This document shows, piece by piece, positions 2,664 through 35,914 of a stretch of DNA of 35,914 bases. Within the stretch, counting starts at the first letter, position 1. Each line of letters begins with the position of its first letter. The translations under genes were made by a program, and so were the position numbers. A model generated the notes under the pieces. That model was not told where the DNA came from and ran no database searches. It saw only the letters and a program-made list of their open reading frames with translations. Origin of the DNA: a virus; IMG/VR virus record IMGVR_UViG_3300037882_001368, positions 1 to 35,914 of that record. The stretch is one strand, 5' to 3'.

Positions 2664-3131
2664 ATGACATTCGGTAGCGCATTTCAAAATAATAACGATG
2701 TTCAAGGCAACCGTGGCTTTGATGTCGCTGCTAATGGCGCATTAATTGTTAATCGCAACATAGCAACTCACCCTGCTGTAAATGTTGTTTTTACTATTGG
2801 TGCAGAAGTTTCTAACGTGCGTAACTTATCGTTGCAATTTAGAAATGCAAACAAACGTAATATTGCTGAAGAGGTGATGTATGATTTATTTGTGTTTGCT
2901 GGTGCGTCTCTTGCGCTTGCTTCAACTGGCGGTTCAACTGGTATTGCTGACGGTGGTGCGGGCTCAATTTTTCAAACTGTTGTTGCCAAAATGCAATTTA
3001 GATGTTTGACAAATGCAGCTGGGTTGTCGGAGTTCACTTGGACAGATACTGGAAATGAGAGTGTTCGTTTGGGGGTGAAATTACCAAATGGTAATGTAAT
3101 GTTATCTAGCGCATTTGCTAATGCGTTGTAA
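2664..3131 (+). CDS. Unknown virion-like protein between terminase genes
   Basis: A 155-residue protein, MTFGSAFQNN.., preceded by AGAGG. It is rich in Gly, Ala, Asn, Val and Thr with alternating hydrophobic residues (NVVFTIGAEVSNVRNLSLQF, VRLGVKLPNGNVMLSS), the look of an all-beta structural domain such as a capsid decoration, head fibre or fibre-tip module. It has no membrane segment or catalytic motif. Its place between the two terminase subunits is unusual for a structural protein. Its stop overlaps the terminase large subunit start (TAATG), so the two are translationally coupled. Structural role is inference from composition. Confidence 0.7.
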   Translation: MTFGSAFQNNNDVQGNRGFDVAANGALIVNRNIATHPAVNVVFTIGAEVSNVRNLSLQFRNANKRNIAEEVMYDLFVFAGASLALASTGGSTGIADGGAGSIFQTVVAKMQFRCLTNAAGLSEFTWTDTGNESVRLGVKLPNGNVMLSSAFANAL

Positions 3132-5632
3132 TGAATGATTTAACTGTCTTAATTTCTCAATTATTGCAAAACCCTGATAAAAAACAGGAATTAGCCTCGT
3201 TAGTTCAATCTAGCGAGGTTTTTGATAAGCCCTTTACGCCATGTTCGCAACCGCAGCGAGATATGTATCTCAGTAAAGCTGATGTTTTGTTAGCAGGTGG
3301 GTGTGTTCCTGCTGAAACCGAGTTTTTAACCCCAAATGGCTGGAAGGCAATATCTGATTATTGCGTCACAGATAAAATTGCACAATGGGATATCGGAGGC
3401 AAATTATCATTTGTTAAGCCATTAAATTACATTGATGCACCATGTAATGAGATGATAGAGTTTTCTAACTCTCGTTTCAAAATGATTGTTTCTGCTAATC
3501 ACAGAGTCCCATTATATAAATGGGACGGTGAATTTTGTGTTAAAACAGCTAGTGATTTAGAAAAAAAACCATCACGTCATAAAATACCAGTGCATTATCA
3601 TATTGATAATATTGGAATTGATTTAACTGATAACGAATTAAGGCTTGCGGTTGCAATTAATGCTGATGGTAGTTTTAATAACGGTTCACAACAATGTCGC
3701 ATGAGTTTACGAAAAATGCGCAAGCGTGAAAGATTAGAAACATTACTTGTTGCGCTAGGGCATAAATGGAAAGAATATCACAATCCCAAAAGACCAACAG
3801 AAGTTCGTTATAGTTTTTATCCTAAATACACAAGCAAACGATATGATGATTTTTGGTGGCAAGCAAATCAACGTCAGCTTGAAATTATCTTAGAGGAAAT
3901 GTCATATTGGGACGGTGATTATTCTGGTGCTTGTGGTGGCGAAGTAATTTTTAACAGTAGTCATAAATGTGATGTTGATTTTATGCAATATGCAGCTCAC
4001 GCTTGCGGACGTGTTGCCACAATAAGCAAAAAAGATAATTGTTATAGATTGTTTATTAGTCAAAATGGCAGCGTCAAATCGTCATTAGTTTTTCGTGGTG
4101 ATGCTTTGAATATTAAGCGCATTAAAGTTGATAGACAATATTGTTTCGAAGTTCCTAGCAGTTTTTGGCTTGCTAGATATAATGATATGATTTTTGTGAC
4201 AGGCAACTCTCCTGGAGGAGGGAAAACCGCTGTTGGTGTCGGCTTAGCATTAAATAATCACAAGCGTTCTCTTGTGGTTCGTCGTCAATTTGTTGATTTA
4301 GCTGCACCAATTCACACGTTATCAAATATTTTAACTGAAAGCGGACGAGGATTAAAAGGCTTAACTAAAGGCAACCGACCATTATATCGCTGGAATGAGC
4401 AAGAAATTGTATTTATGGGGCTTGGTGAAGACCAAGGCGGAAAGCAAGGCTTGCCATTTGATTATATTTATTTTGATGAAGGCTCGCAATTTTTAGAAGA
4501 GCAATTTAGAATGTGTTTAGGTTGGTTGCGTTCACCAGATGCAAATCAGCGCACAAGGGTTGTTATCGGCACAAATCCGCCAGTATATCCATATCATTTA
4601 ACAGGTGCGTGGCTATCACGTTATTTTGCGCCTTGGCTTGACCCTGCGCACCCTAACCCTGCAAAGGCTGGTGAGTTACGTTATTTTAACCCAACAAACA
4701 ATGATGAATGCAATAAAGATGATGTTTTTATTATTGCAGGTCGTGAAGTCGGAGCGCATAGCAGAACTTATATTCCATCATCATTTACAGATAATCCATA
4801 CTACAATCCTGATGAATATATTAAAAGCCTTGCTTCATTGCCAGATACTGTGCGAGATAGATTGCTTGCTGGTGATTTTATGTCGGCTTATGAAGATAGT
4901 GAATGGCAGGTAATACCTACTGCATGGGTTGAAGCTGCATTTGAGCGATGGGAACGTTACGGCAAGCCAGCTAATGTTCCAATGTGCGCTATGGCCGTTG
5001 ATATTGCACAAGGTGGCAACGATTGCACTACAATAGCAATGCGTTATGATATTTGGTATGATAAATTAACATCAGTCAAAGGAAGTGAAACGCCTACAGG
5101 GGCAGAAGTTGCGGGGTTGGTTATTCAGCATAGACGCAACAATGCGGTTGTTGTGGTTGATGCGCAAGGCGGTTTTGGTGGTGCAACTATTGAGCATTTG
5201 AAAATAAATGATTTTGATTGTGTTCCACATCATGGTGGCAATGCGTCAATGGCTCGCACATTGGACGGCACTATGGGTTTTTATAATAAGCGTGCTGAAG
5301 TATATTGGAGATTTAGAGAAGCCCTTGACCCTAGCCAAGCTGGAGGCAGTAAAATTATGTTGCCTCGTGACCCTGAGTTATTATCTGATTTATGCGCTGT
5401 CGAGATTGACCAGAGTGAAATGATTAATAAAAAAGGCATAAAACTTGTCAAAAAAACTGATTTAATTAAATCATTAGGGCGTTCACCAGACAAGGGTGAT
5501 GCTGTGGTTATGGCTTGGAGCGTTGGACTTAAGCAAGAAAATATTGCAGGTGGTTGGGGTGCATATAAAACTAATAGACAAAATGCAGTTCCTCGTGTTA
5601 ATATGGGTAGAGATAATATGCGGAGAAGGTAA
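3131..5632 (+). CDS. terL: Terminase large subunit containing an intein
   Basis: The ATPase/nuclease that packages phage DNA. The 833-codon frame holds a 302-residue intein at residues 58-359; removing it leaves a 531-residue terminase, a normal size. The exteins join LLAGG to SPGGGKT, so the intein sits inside the Walker A loop. Walker B is YIYFDEGSQF (D449, E450). The C-terminal RNase H-like nuclease has an acidic first strand, AMAVDIAQGGND, a second strand, VVVVDAQGG, and a final DKGDAVVMAW acidic motif. ATP binding cannot occur until the intein splices out. Codon use of intein and exteins looks alike. The gene is coupled to the upstream gene and followed closely by small head genes. Confidence 0.93.
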   Translation: MNDLTVLISQLLQNPDKKQELASLVQSSEVFDKPFTPCSQPQRDMYLSKADVLLAGGCVPAETEFLTPNGWKAISDYCVTDKIAQWDIGGKLSFVKPLNYIDAPCNEMIEFSNSRFKMIVSANHRVPLYKWDGEFCVKTASDLEKKPSRHKIPVHYHIDNIGIDLTDNELRLAVAINADGSFNNGSQQCRMSLRKMRKRERLETLLVALGHKWKEYHNPKRPTEVRYSFYPKYTSKRYDDFWWQANQRQLEIILEEMSYWDGDYSGACGGEVIFNSSHKCDVDFMQYAAHACGRVATISKKDNCYRLFISQNGSVKSSLVFRGDALNIKRIKVDRQYCFEVPSSFWLARYNDMIFVTGNSPGGGKTAVGVGLALNNHKRSLVVRRQFVDLAAPIHTLSNILTESGRGLKGLTKGNRPLYRWNEQEIVFMGLGEDQGGKQGLPFDYIYFDEGSQFLEEQFRMCLGWLRSPDANQRTRVVIGTNPPVYPYHLTGAWLSRYFAPWLDPAHPNPAKAGELRYFNPTNNDECNKDDVFIIAGREVGAHSRTYIPSSFTDNPYYNPDEYIKSLASLPDTVRDRLLAGDFMSAYEDSEWQVIPTAWVEAAFERWERYGKPANVPMCAMAVDIAQGGNDCTTIAMRYDIWYDKLTSVKGSETPTGAEVAGLVIQHRRNNAVVVVDAQGGFGGATIEHLKINDFDCVPHHGGNASMARTLDGTMGFYNKRAEVYWRFREALDPSQAGGSKIMLPRDPELLSDLCAVEIDQSEMINKKGIKLVKKTDLIKSLGRSPDKGDAVVMAWSVGLKQENIAGGWGAYKTNRQNAVPRVNMGRDNMRRR
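3302..4207 (+). other. Intein with LAGLIDADG-type homing endonuclease remnants
   Basis: A self-splicing element encoded in frame. It starts with Cys58 (CVPAETEFLTPNGW, block A); block B is IVSANHRVPLYKW with His124. The end reads CFEVPSSFWLARYNDMIFVTGN (blocks F/G, broken here only by length: CFEVPSSFWLARY then NDMIFVTGN), followed by Ser as the +1 residue. The terminal Asn is preceded by Gly where most inteins have His, a known variation. Between the splicing blocks, LRLAVAINADG (residues 170-180) and a second motif around MSYWDGD resemble the paired LAGLIDADG helices of a homing endonuclease. The catalytic Asp is present in the first and the second is degenerate, so endonuclease activity is uncertain. 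Confidence 0.9.
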
Positions 5633-8250: not shown

Positions 8251-9167
8251 CTGAAACAGAAGTAACAACAACTGGAACGAGCAACGACACTGTTGTTGCA
8301 AGTCAAAACGACACTGTTGCAAGCGGTGCGGGTGATACAGTTGTATCTAGTGAAGCTGATGCAAAGCCAACTAATGAGTTTTCTTGGAATGAATATGTAA
8401 ATAATGTTAAAACAAAAAATGAAAAACTTGCTAAAACTTTAGAGCGTTATTCGTCTGTTGATGATGTAACAAAAGCATTATTTGAGGCAAAACAACTTAT
8501 AAGCAAGGGTGTAAAAGAGCCTGAATTACCTAAAAATGCAACTGAAGAGCAAATTAAAGAATATCGTCAAAAAATCGGCGTTCCTGAAAGCTCAGACAAA
8601 TATCAATTTCCTGAAACTGTAAAAGTTAAAGATGAGGACAAGCCGTTATGGGATTTGTTTGGCAAGTTCGCTATTGAAAATAATATCTCACAAGAAGACT
8701 TCGGCAAATTAGCTCCAGCTTATTATGCAATGGAAGCTGCCATTAGAGAACAGGGCGAGGCTGATTATAAAACGATTGTAAGAGAACAAGACGCTGCTGT
8801 CAAAGAAATGTGGGGTAGCGATGCGACAACAAATATAAAAACAAATGAGGATTTTCTAATTAATTCTGGTGGCGAAACTTTGGCGCAGTTGTTATTAGGC
8901 GCAACAAGTTCGGACGGAAAGCCTTTAGGTAATAATCCTGTTGTTGCAAAATGGATTAATGAACAAGCAAGGCAAGCTGGTTATTCTAGTTTGATGCCTT
9001 ATTACAGTCAAACATCTATAGATGATTTGAATACAAAAATAGAAAACTTGGAAAAAATGATGGGCGACCACAATTCCGCATATTGGAAAGGTGAACACGC
9101 ACAAGTCAAGCAAAAAGAATACCGAGAACTTACTATGCTTCGTGATAAAATCACAGCTAGAAAGTAA
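8247..9167 (+). CDS. Scaffolding protein
   Basis: A 306-residue acidic protein immediately before the capsid gene, the standard place for a scaffold that shapes the procapsid and is then lost. The N-terminus is low-complexity Thr/Asp/Val (ETEVTTTGTSNDTVV), followed by predicted helices with many Lys/Glu. It carries IKEYRQKIGVPESSDKYQF, a stretch seen in many podovirus and siphovirus scaffold-like proteins, and the C-terminus (LREL-type basic helix ending RDKITARK) should bind capsid protein. Translation is coupled to the upstream gene through ATGA. Confidence 0.85.
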   Translation: MTETEVTTTGTSNDTVVASQNDTVASGAGDTVVSSEADAKPTNEFSWNEYVNNVKTKNEKLAKTLERYSSVDDVTKALFEAKQLISKGVKEPELPKNATEEQIKEYRQKIGVPESSDKYQFPETVKVKDEDKPLWDLFGKFAIENNISQEDFGKLAPAYYAMEAAIREQGEADYKTIVREQDAAVKEMWGSDATTNIKTNEDFLINSGGETLAQLLLGATSSDGKPLGNNPVVAKWINEQARQAGYSSLMPYYSQTSIDDLNTKIENLEKMMGDHNSAYWKGEHAQVKQKEYRELTMLRDKITARK

Positions 9168-33458: not shown

Positions 33459-33637
33459 TTAACCGCATATATTTATGGCTTATAGCGCAACAAGAAAAAA
33501 GGCACGAAAAAAGCCTTAAAAAAGCGTATAAACAATTAAACTTAACTAACACGTCATTTGATGATTTTAAGATTTATATGAATAATTTATCAGATGGCTT
33601 AAGGGGTTTATCCAATGTTCTCAATGGCAAAAATTAA
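33455..33637 (+). CDS. Small amphipathic protein of the lysis cassette
   Basis: A 60-residue protein, MINRIYLWLIAQQEKRHEKSLKK.., start overlapping the endolysin stop (ATGA) with GGAGGCGGAG upstream. The N-terminal ~12 residues are hydrophobic, then a strongly basic helix follows and a Leu/Asn-rich end (NNLSDGLRGLSNVL). Unrecognised. Its location between endolysin and spanins suggests a lysis accessory (antiholin-like or membrane-associated), but there is no direct evidence. I prefer the ATG at 33455 to an in-frame GTG at 33443. Confidence 0.65.
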   Translation: MINRIYLWLIAQQEKRHEKSLKKAYKQLNLTNTSFDDFKIYMNNLSDGLRGLSNVLNGKN

Positions 33638-33845
33638 AGCATGGCTTATTTCAGTTGCAGGGATATTATCTGCAATAGCGGTTATTTTTATGTCAGGAAA
33701 ACGCAAGGGCAAATCCGAATTGGAGGCAAAACAGAATGACAAAATACTTCAAGACACGAAGGAAATTAAAAAGGTTGAAAATACTATTGCTAGTATGCCT
33801 GATGATAAGCGTGAACGGTTGCGAGAAAAATATACCATTGACTGA
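33615..33845 (+). CDS. Inner-membrane spanin (Rz-like)
   Basis: A 76-residue protein with one N-terminal membrane segment (residues ~9-26, WLISVAGILSAIAVIFM) then a charged periplasmic coiled coil (KSELEAKQNDKILQDTKEIK). This matches i-spanins, which fuse inner and outer membranes in the last step of Gram-negative lysis. AAGGGG precedes the ATG. The overlapping lipoprotein gene in another frame supports the assignment. It is shorter than lambda Rz. Confidence 0.8.
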   Translation: MFSMAKIKAWLISVAGILSAIAVIFMSGKRKGKSELEAKQNDKILQDTKEIKKVENTIASMPDDKRERLREKYTID

Positions 33846-33972
33846 TAGCTATTGCTTGCACAGTAACATGATATTTTTTCACCCTGATGACGTGATGAAT
33901 GAGCGCACCGAAACAGCTATTATTCTGCACAATCAGAAAATAGAAAAATTGTGTGGCGAAAAAAATATATAA
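33736..33972 (+). CDS. Outer-membrane lipoprotein spanin (Rz1-like)
   Basis: A 78-residue protein starting inside the i-spanin gene in a different frame, with GGAGG at proper spacing. A basic N-terminus and hydrophobic core (LKILLLVCLMISVNGC) end in a lipobox-like V-N-G-C29, so Cys29 should be lipidated. The mature part, DSYCLHSNMIFFHPDD..ETAIILHNQKIEKLCG, matches the 'DSYC..I.(hydrophobic)..D..(T)...HN.....LC' pattern common to Rz1-like phage lipoproteins. It forms the spanin pair with 33615-33845. It is the last plus-strand gene before the convergent junction. Confidence 0.85.
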   Translation: MTKYFKTRRKLKRLKILLLVCLMISVNGCEKNIPLTDSYCLHSNMIFFHPDDVMNERTETAIILHNQKIEKLCGEKNI

Positions 33973-33973
33973 A

Positions 33974-34044
33974 TGTGACGTGATGGAATCGAGCCATCAA
34001 CGAGCCACCCGAAGTGGCATGTTTTACCATTAAACTAACGTCAC
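33974..34044 (-). tRNA. tRNA, anticodon UCG (probable tRNA-Arg)
   Basis: Read leftward, 71 bases fold as a cloverleaf: acceptor GTGACGT/ACGTCAC, D arm GTTT-AATGGTA-AAAC, anticodon arm TGCCA-CTTCGGG-TGGCT, a four-base variable region, and T arm GATGG-CTCGATT-CCATC with discriminator A. Positions 34-36 read UCG, for Arg codon CGA, and G37 suits a CNN-reading tRNA. Oddities: the first base pair of the anticodon stem is T-T, the T loop begins with C rather than T54, and no CCA is encoded. It is probably functional, supplying a codon that may be rare in the host, but the oddities allow a decayed copy. Confidence 0.75.
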
Positions 34045-34046
34045 AT

Positions 34047-34075
34047 AAAAAGACTAGCTTGTGGTGGAGCTAGTC
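34047..34075 (-). terminator. Leftward rho-independent terminator upstream of the tRNA
   Basis: GACTAGCT and AGCTAGTC pair perfectly across an eight-base loop (34060-34067). On the minus strand the stem is followed by TTTTT (34051-34047), then by the tRNA three bases later. It would end the transcript from the 34338-34366 promoter. On the plus strand there is no U tract. Confidence 0.75.
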
Positions 34076-34331
34076 ATGTTGATGGAATTATAACATAAAA
34101 TCACCCCCTTGCTTGACTCGCTCTTTGTTTCCAATGTGAAACAGGCTAATACAAACAAGAGGGAGAAAACACAAACCATCACTAAGCGCAAAGAAATCGC
34201 CTTTATAAAGTGAACAACCCACTAAGTTTAATATAGAATAGAATAAAGTTTTAAGCACGTTGCGAGTGCTTAAAACCTTTAATGCATGTGATACGGTGAA
34301 CCTTTGCACACCTATAAAACACGACATATCA
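34047..34331 (-). ncRNA. Candidate structured noncoding RNA (~280 nt)
   Basis: A self-contained transcription unit: strong promoter at 34338-34366, terminator at 34047-34075. Between them are a perfect 11-bp inverted repeat (34248-34258 with 34266-34276), an 11-bp imperfect stem pairing TCTCCCTCTTG with CAAGGGGGTGA (34156-34166 with 34101-34111) and enclosing a 6-bp hairpin (34126-34131 with 34138-34143), and smaller stems. The second stem hides a strong Shine-Dalgarno before a two-codon frame (ATG TTA TAA, 34097-34089). An 83-codon frame also crosses the region, but its first ATG overlaps the promoter and the sequence reads unlike a protein. No known RNA family is recognised. Regulatory role (antisense to late 3' transcript, or trans-acting) is unproven. 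Confidence 0.5.
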
Positions 34332-34337
34332 GAAAAC

Positions 34338-34366
34338 ATAGTAACGTTTTTATAGGAATTTGTCAA
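34338..34366 (-). promoter_or_regulatory. Strong leftward sigma70 promoter
   Basis: A perfect TTGACA (34366-34361), a 17-base spacer and TACTAT (34343-34338), predicted start about 34331. It is the best consensus promoter in the window and has no credible protein gene behind it, pointing to an RNA product and/or the tRNA. A second TATAAT at 34092-34087 could serve the tRNA alone. Confidence 0.75.
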
Positions 34367-34395
34367 TCAAATTCACCGAAACTTACACTTGTGTG

Positions 34396-34441
34396 GGTAT
34401 TGCTAATTAATTATAAATAATTAGTTAGCAATGCCTTTATT
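34396..34441 (+). terminator. Long-stem terminator of the late rightward transcript
   Basis: A 19-bp stem (34396-34414 with 34417-34435, two G-T pairs) with GC-rich base GG/CC followed by TTTATTTAATT on the plus strand. It lies beyond the spanin genes and would end late transcription before it enters the opposing early genes. The late mRNA would then run antisense across the tRNA and the candidate RNA. Confidence 0.65.
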
Positions 34442-34501
34442 TAATTGTTCGCGTATTCTAGTTGCTCCATCAAAAGTTGCAAAATCTAATATTTTCTGCA
34501 T
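34421..34501 (-). CDS. Tiny possible ORF (26 aa)
   Basis: Leftward ATG at 34501 opens MQKILDFATFDGATRIREQL.. to a stop at 34421 inside the long terminator stem. The sequence reads protein-like, but there is no Shine-Dalgarno and it is very short. It may be the end of the leftward operon or chance. Confidence 0.25.
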   Translation of the reverse strand: MQKILDFATFDGATRIREQLNKGIAN

Positions 34502-34512
34502 CACACAATGAG

Positions 34513-34644
34513 TTAATCAATTTTCTCTGTAAATGCAATCCATTTATCACGTCCAACTTGCTGTCCTTCTAAATAAGCCACCATTAAAGTGAAAAACCAA
34601 ACCATATTAATCATAATTTTTACAACTATATTAAATTCACTCAT
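34513..34644 (-). CDS. Small membrane protein (43 aa)
   Basis: Leftward ATG at 34644 overlaps the preceding stop (ATGA) and has GGGGGAG upstream, strong evidence for translation. The sequence MSEFNIVVKIMINMVWFFTLMVAYLEG.. has a single membrane segment at residues ~6-24 and a polar C-terminus (QVGRDKWIAFTEKID). Function unknown. Confidence 0.65.
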   Translation of the reverse strand: MSEFNIVVKIMINMVWFFTLMVAYLEGQQVGRDKWIAFTEKID

Positions 34645-34880
34645 ATCTCCCCCGCTATTTCGTTTGCTTGTTGAAGTGCGTTTTTTAATTGAAAATCAAG
34701 TAATTCTATATCCTTTTCGTTGATTATTATTGAAATGTTATGCAAAAGATATTGAGCGCATTTTATTTTCAGAATTAAATATTCAATCACTTTAATTATT
34801 TTCTGAACCCTAGGGTCAACCGCTAGCACCCCGCCGTGGTTTATTTCAGTGCTGGCAATTATTTTTTGTATGTTGTCCAT
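34641..34880 (-). CDS. Small helical hypothetical protein (79 aa)
   Basis: Starts MDNIQKIIAS with AAGGAG eight bases upstream; an in-frame GTG at 34889 overlaps that site and is rejected. Hydrophobic and charged residues alternate (KIIKVIEYLILKIKCAQYLLHNI, LLDFQLKNALQQANEIAGEI), suggesting two or three helices. No family is recognised. Coupled to the downstream small membrane protein by ATGA. Confidence 0.7.
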   Translation of the reverse strand: MDNIQKIIASTEINHGGVLAVDPRVQKIIKVIEYLILKIKCAQYLLHNISIIINEKDIELLDFQLKNALQQANEIAGEI

Positions 34881-34881
34881 C

Positions 34882-35022
34882 TCACTCACTCCTTAAGATG
34901 CTATCTTGTTCATTTAACGCCACTATTTCGGCGTAGGTTAATTGTTTTAACTGTGCGTTGCTTGGTTTATAAAACAATCCAAATAAAACAATTATAAGTA
35001 ATGCGGTTATGGTTAATCGCAT
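34882..35022 (-). CDS. Small secreted or membrane protein (46 aa)
   Basis: A leftward frame MRLTITALLIIVLFGLFYKPSNA.. (the first 18 residues hydrophobic, then SNA-Q as a possible signal peptidase site) ending SILRSE. Its start overlaps the stop of the 35013-35453 gene and its stop lies one base before the next ATG, an operon-perfect fit. A Shine-Dalgarno is weak (GAGATAG). The product is a short exported peptide or membrane protein of unknown role. Confidence 0.6.
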   Translation of the reverse strand: MRLTITALLIIVLFGLFYKPSNAQLKQLTYAEIVALNEQDSILRSE

Positions 35023-35805: not shown

Positions 35806-35914
35806 TTAGCCATCGCCATAGCCAGAGCCATAGCCATCGCCAAAGCCATCGCCAGAGCCATCGCCATCGCCATGGCCAGAGCCATAGCCATCGCCAAAGC
35901 CATCGCCAGAGCCA
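35806..35914 (-). CDS. C-terminus of a Gly-X dipeptide-repeat protein (partial)
   Basis: Reading leftward from the right edge, every codon of one frame alternates Gly with Ser, Asp, Phe, Tyr or His: GSGDGFGDGYGSGHGDGD then GSGDGFGDGYGSGYGDG and a TAA stop at 35806-35808. The 35 visible residues are the end of a gene that starts beyond the window. Low-complexity Gly/Tyr/Asp tails of this type occur on small phage proteins of unknown function. It immediately precedes, and is probably co-transcribed with, the gene ending at 35446. Confidence 0.7.
   Translation of the reverse strand, partial: GSGDGFGDGYGSGHGDGDGSGDGFGDGYGSGYGDG
35809..35914. repeat. Hexanucleotide and 54-bp tandem repeat
   Basis: The plus strand is a run of GCCNNN hexamers (GCCATC, GCCATA, GCCAGA, GCCAAA). 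A higher-order 54-bp period is superimposed: 40 bases at 35821-35860 recur identically at 35875-35914. It encodes the Gly-X tail and probably extends past the edge. Assembly breaks at such repeats may explain why the window ends here. Confidence 0.85.

Follow-up and report, generated by a model that had tools for sequence, protein, structure and literature searches.

RNAC and RNAD of phage T4 are linked to its tRNA genes, cages of RNA alone are formed by ROOL and GOLLD, and the pRNA of the podovirus phi29 is built around a three-way junction; to our knowledge, the functions of the phage RNAs that accompany tRNAs are unknown. RNAC and RNAD are phage-encoded, have been verified by Northern blot, and are of unknown function (PMC9697503). 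ROOL is a large structured noncoding RNA of phages and prophages, often found close to tRNA islands; GOLLD, a phage and prophage RNA encoded near tRNAs, rises during lysis, and many of its members are longer than 800 nt (PMC12286853).

The locus described here lies in what we call the window, the whole stretch of 35,914 nt that was analysed (positions 1 to 35,914 of the IMG/VR virus record IMGVR_UViG_3300037882_001368). It consists of a candidate structured RNA (34403 to 34046, minus strand) and, 1 nt downstream on the same strand, a gene for tRNA-Arg; as in ROOL and GOLLD, a structured phage RNA thus adjoins a tRNA gene, its predicted fold being more stable than those of shuffled sequences by a z-score of -5.5 to -6.3. 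By analogy, the candidate RNA resembles RNAC/RNAD, ROOL and GOLLD in placement, and we assign it to none of them. No sequence relation to RNAC or RNAD was found, the phage is of a different type, and the T4 RNAs are expressed, whereas the candidate is a prediction from sequence and computed fold. Rfam, searched at gathering score and with E as high as 10, gave no match to ROOL, which often accompanies tRNA islands, whereas a single tRNA stands here, and in which multiple pseudoknots are predicted, and none to GOLLD, many of whose members are far longer than ~358 nt. The likeness to phi29 pRNA is topological only, in that there is no Rfam match and the phage has a terminase large subunit of the ordinary type. 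In a small phage, a compact RNA of ~360 nt would lend itself much better than the giant ones to deletion, probing, and imaging; its value hinges on finding a host or homologues.

The record represents a small phage. Its plus strand carries a late module of podovirus-like make-up (terminase, head-tail connector, major capsid, lysozyme, and Rz-like spanin), which ends at the stop of an Rz1-like frame at 33972. The small genes at the right end are oriented leftward (35799 to 34421), so that the two gene sets converge over 33973-34420, with the tRNA and the candidate RNA inside. By our gene list, 33973-34512 is the longest gene-free gap (540 nt) of this compact phage; if the 26-codon ORF at its edge is counted as a gene, the gap shrinks to ~448 nt and is the longest even then. 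An earlier sequence-only reading of this DNA had described the RNA as antisense to the late transcript where this ends, which holds geometrically, but only 3' of the last lysis gene. The features are:

33615-33845, plus strand: Rz-like spanin (PHROG 1026, E 4e-16)
33736-33972, plus strand: putative Rz1-like lipoprotein frame overlapping the spanin, so labelled for its embedded frame and lipobox-like VNGC
33973..34045, minus strand: tRNA-Arg, anticodon UCG (ARAGORN; Rfam tRNA, 56.6 bits)
34046..34403, minus strand: candidate structured noncoding RNA, 358 nt (MFE -106.7 kcal/mol; ends placed from the fold)
34047..34075, minus strand: P6, terminator-like hairpin with U-run (8 bp, 4 of them G-C, then TTTTTA; -11.5 kcal/mol)
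34080..34181, minus strand: P5, second long hairpin (12-bp core, pair probability 1.0)
34087..34095, minus strand: extended -10 element TGTTATAAT, candidate promoter for the tRNA alone
34217..34398, minus strand: 5' three-way domain closed by P1 (z -5.55 on the minus strand, -4.58 on the plus strand)
34245..34279, minus strand: P3, 14-bp hairpin with one G-U pair (pair probability 0.97)
34281..34389, minus strand: P2, long imperfect hairpin (core helices, pair probability 0.90-0.97)
34398-34393 (ACCCAC) with 34222-34217 (GUGGGU), minus strand: P1 (pair probability 0.94)
34338..34366, minus strand: TTGACA-17-TACTAT, the promoter proposed earlier, inside P2 and at chance level
34395..34436, plus strand: 19-bp hairpin with a TTTATTT tail, probably the terminator of the late genes
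34410..34415, minus strand: TATAAT, which would start transcription near G34403; no -35 element seen
34421-34501 (26 codons), 34513-34644 and 34641-34889, minus strand: final small genes in the operon that runs leftward (coding scores +0.60, +0.42 and +0.24)

The predicted fold of the candidate RNA contains 117 base pairs, 14 of them G-U. Among 478 scanned windows of 200 nt, 34201-34400 on the minus strand ranks first, and it stays first when the leading scan windows are re-scored with 400 shuffles (z -5.24); z-scores from 25 shuffles are noisy and too extreme (-7.66), and the values from 200-400 shuffles (-5.2 to -5.5) are preferred. The transcript of the sequence-only reading, taken alone, also folds more stably than expected (z -4.8; all 200 shuffles were less stable); its boundaries, however, were wrong in detail, as the structured element starts ~35-70 nt farther upstream. 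In the 5' part, P1 encloses P2 and P3 to form the three-way domain. The core helices of P2 pair 34378-34369 with 34303-34294 and 34356-34348 with 34319-34311, and P3 incorporates an 11-bp perfect stem (34276-34248), noted previously, which is real and extends to 14 bp, although 12 of 40 shuffled full-length windows contain a perfect stem of this size. The core of P5 (34163-34152 with 34115-34104) buries a GGGGG, as had been proposed, and the surrounding segment 34080-34182 reaches a z of -4.1 on the minus strand and -2.6 on the plus strand. The hairpin proper of P6 (34075-34052), 6 nt upstream of the tRNA, has the form of the intrinsic terminator for which it had been taken, but in the region terminator-like sites occur about as often as chance predicts (4, with 4.4 expected). 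The core helices form with pair probabilities of ~0.9-1.0 and persist when upstream sequence is added; the base of P5 varies. The fold thus exceeds chance as a composite, in which promoter, terminator, and 11-bp hairpin are singly unremarkable, and as a computed property of this single genome it is well supported.

Relatives were sought in several ways. An Rfam cmscan (gathering score, and E up to 10) matched tRNA as the sole family at gathering score, and distant blastn searches against phages, plasmids, and E. coli genomes gave no real match. No homologous RNA locus emerged from scans of viral contigs with the endolysin, a late protein, an early protein, the connector, the capsid, and the 92-codon frame discussed below, nor a homologue of the candidate RNA from a peptide-pattern scan of IMG/VR or from tRNA-pattern and genome-contig searches. 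The covariance search that had been suggested was run with a model made of the one sequence entered twice, which reaches only fairly close relatives; on the fetched loci its sole match was the window itself, and on 47 related phage contigs it found no homologue, with weak matches in one record, a bacterial genome (best E 0.4). Since the sets searched yielded no homologue, covariation could not be counted, and novelty as an RNA class cannot be claimed; nor does absence from these sets make the RNA unique. What stands of the proposed new structured RNA is a structured, apparently noncoding minus-strand RNA as the best reading; that it represents a new family, of structured phage RNAs of medium size that are made together with a tRNA at the late/leftward junction, have a function of their own during infection, and share no sequence relation with ROOL, GOLLD, or RNAC/RNAD, we consider unlikely. 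Of the relatives with a long contig, the nearest is G002, whose connector is 75% identical; this contig stops within the late region, before the equivalent junction, and is thus uninformative on conservation.

Our preferred reading, held tentatively and at somewhat less than an even chance, is that the minus strand, where the leftward operon ends, encodes a structured noncoding RNA, a leader or a stable RNA, that is co-transcribed with tRNA-Arg; we propose that it accumulates as a stable phage RNA. Transcription, running from ~34403 to 34046 and on into the tRNA, would most likely come from the leftward operon of small genes, or else from a weak start close by, near 34403; the RNA would adopt the three-way 5' domain and the second long hairpin; P6 and its U-run would terminate some transcripts, with the remainder continuing into the tRNA; RNase P would free the tRNA at 34046/34045; and the 358-nt piece would accumulate, as RNAC and RNAD do. 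The tRNA requires transcription of the minus strand at its own position, which makes transcription of that strand likely, and the upstream genes are oriented in the same direction; no terminator-like site was found on the minus strand between these genes and P3, and hence the operon is the likely source. For the RNA itself, no promoter is convincing. TTGACA-17-TACTAT is present at 34366-34338, but it is not the best sigma70 promoter of the window, as had been held: sites matching at least 10 of 12 positions number 22, against ~23.5 expected in shuffles, and TTGACA-17-TACAAT at 8803 (minus strand) matches better (11/12). A transcript starting from within P2 would, moreover, be without the 5' strand of P1 and most of P2. 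Also against the preferred reading stand P6, which, placed between RNA and tRNA, would lower tRNA synthesis if it were efficient; the extended -10 element at 34095, which could yield the tRNA without the RNA; the lack of homologues in the sets searched, and hence of covariation; and the fold of the plus strand, which over 33973-34440 is equally strong.

This last point also speaks for the main rival, in which the junction is a plain boundary between convergent operons, made up of terminators, hairpins that protect 3' ends, and RNase III sites on one or both strands, and contains no separate RNA gene; we regard this as possible, though on the whole doubtful. It accords with the location between convergent transcripts, with the strong late terminator, and with the ability of the plus strand to fold P2b, P3, P6, and the tRNA cruciform; the whole junction has a z of -7.7 on the plus strand and -6.6 on the minus strand, the plus-strand fold being aided by the antisense tRNA and the 19-bp terminator hairpin. 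Sequence and nested structure nevertheless go far beyond the needs of termination, and the core favors the minus strand, both over 34046-34403 (z -6.3, versus -3.5 on the plus strand) and over 34080-34403 (-5.4 versus -3.2); P1 and the continuous 12-bp core of P5 form on the minus strand only. Specificity of the structure for the minus strand is in this way supported, though not proven.

A role confined to the tRNA, in which P5 and P6 control the amount of tRNA-Arg, by attenuation or as a signal for processing, and no free RNA has a role, appears distinctly unlikely. P6 with its U-run does stand 6 nt ahead of the tRNA, and the extended -10 element (34095-34087, ~42-50 nt upstream of the tRNA; two such sites in the window, 4.6 expected) could supply the tRNA without the candidate RNA. 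An attenuator of this kind is disfavored by the fold, however, as no alternative antiterminator structure was found and P6 has a pair probability of 0.97-1.0 in all contexts folded; a leader of 300 nt is also unusual for a tRNA. The tRNA-Arg itself lies directly downstream of the candidate RNA, as described previously. It reads CGA; among the arginine codons of the late genes only 7% are CGA and 2% CGG, and the tRNA thus does not obviously serve the main codons of the phage. Its T loop begins with C (CUCGAUU), and its CCA is not encoded.

The inverted repeats could also act as DNA, as a protein-binding or replication site and not as RNA, an explanation to which we give little weight. The core of P3 is perfectly symmetric, and at one of the convergent junctions of G002 lies a region that is rich in repeats and symmetric between the strands; on the other hand, the window contains a single copy of the P3 palindrome and the G002 pieces none, for which reason a repeated operator was rejected, and nested helices, internal loops, and G-U pairs (14 of 117) are RNA-like. 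The G002 region (L031:8735-9185, 451 nt) consists of repeated inverted GCAAGGTGTA/GGTGCAGGGTGTA units with an AT-rich core, folds to the same degree on either strand (z about -13.5), and adjoins a primase-like gene; it looks like an iteron-type replication origin. Being strand-symmetric, repeat-based, and unrelated, it was rejected as a counterpart of the candidate RNA.

A small protein gene, be it the 83/92-codon frame (34366-34088) or a lipoprotein-like one of 45 codons (34191-34054), both on the minus strand, is highly improbable on codon scores of -0.09 and -0.46 per codon, when known genes score at least +0.19 and 43 spurious ORFs (at least 60 codons, nested in known genes) average -0.09 (sd 0.22). 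The codon score was trained on the known genes, which somewhat flatters the contrast, but two small genes outside the training set, 34513-34644 and 34882-35022, nevertheless score +0.42 and +0.18. At 92 codons, the first frame is long for noncoding sequence; no relatives of it were found in phage records or viral contigs. The 45-codon frame has a TTG start after AAAGG and a hydrophobic, signal-peptide-like N-terminus, and it ends within P6, but its GC3 is 58%, against 24-29% in genes. With a strong fold, no coding signal, and a frame without relatives, the best reading of the candidate RNA is noncoding, in agreement with the earlier view that the region holds no convincing protein gene.

Three short leftward genes near the junction (34421-34501, 34513-34644, and 34882-35022, minus strand; 26-46 codons) have gene-like codon scores, and two of them encode products with a single hydrophobic segment or a signal-peptide-like sequence. 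Where the leftward genes and the late module diverge, the gap between them contains 2.8 tandem copies of a 26-base AT-rich unit (2101-2173), possibly a regulatory or origin site. The terminase large subunit (3131-5632, plus strand) looks, from its sequence, to be interrupted by an intein of ~298 residues, called by eye, immediately ahead of the P-loop, with the boundaries LLAGG/CVPAETEFLTPNGW...SANHRVPL...FVTGN/SPGGGKT; NCBIfam gave no match, a 'PhoH-like' PHROG match (56-300) lands on the insert, and the terminase of G002 is without residues 58-353. At the right end, a hexamer tandem repeat (TAGCCA/TCGCCA, 18 copies) occupies 35807-35914 up to the end of the record, and the assembly probably broke there.
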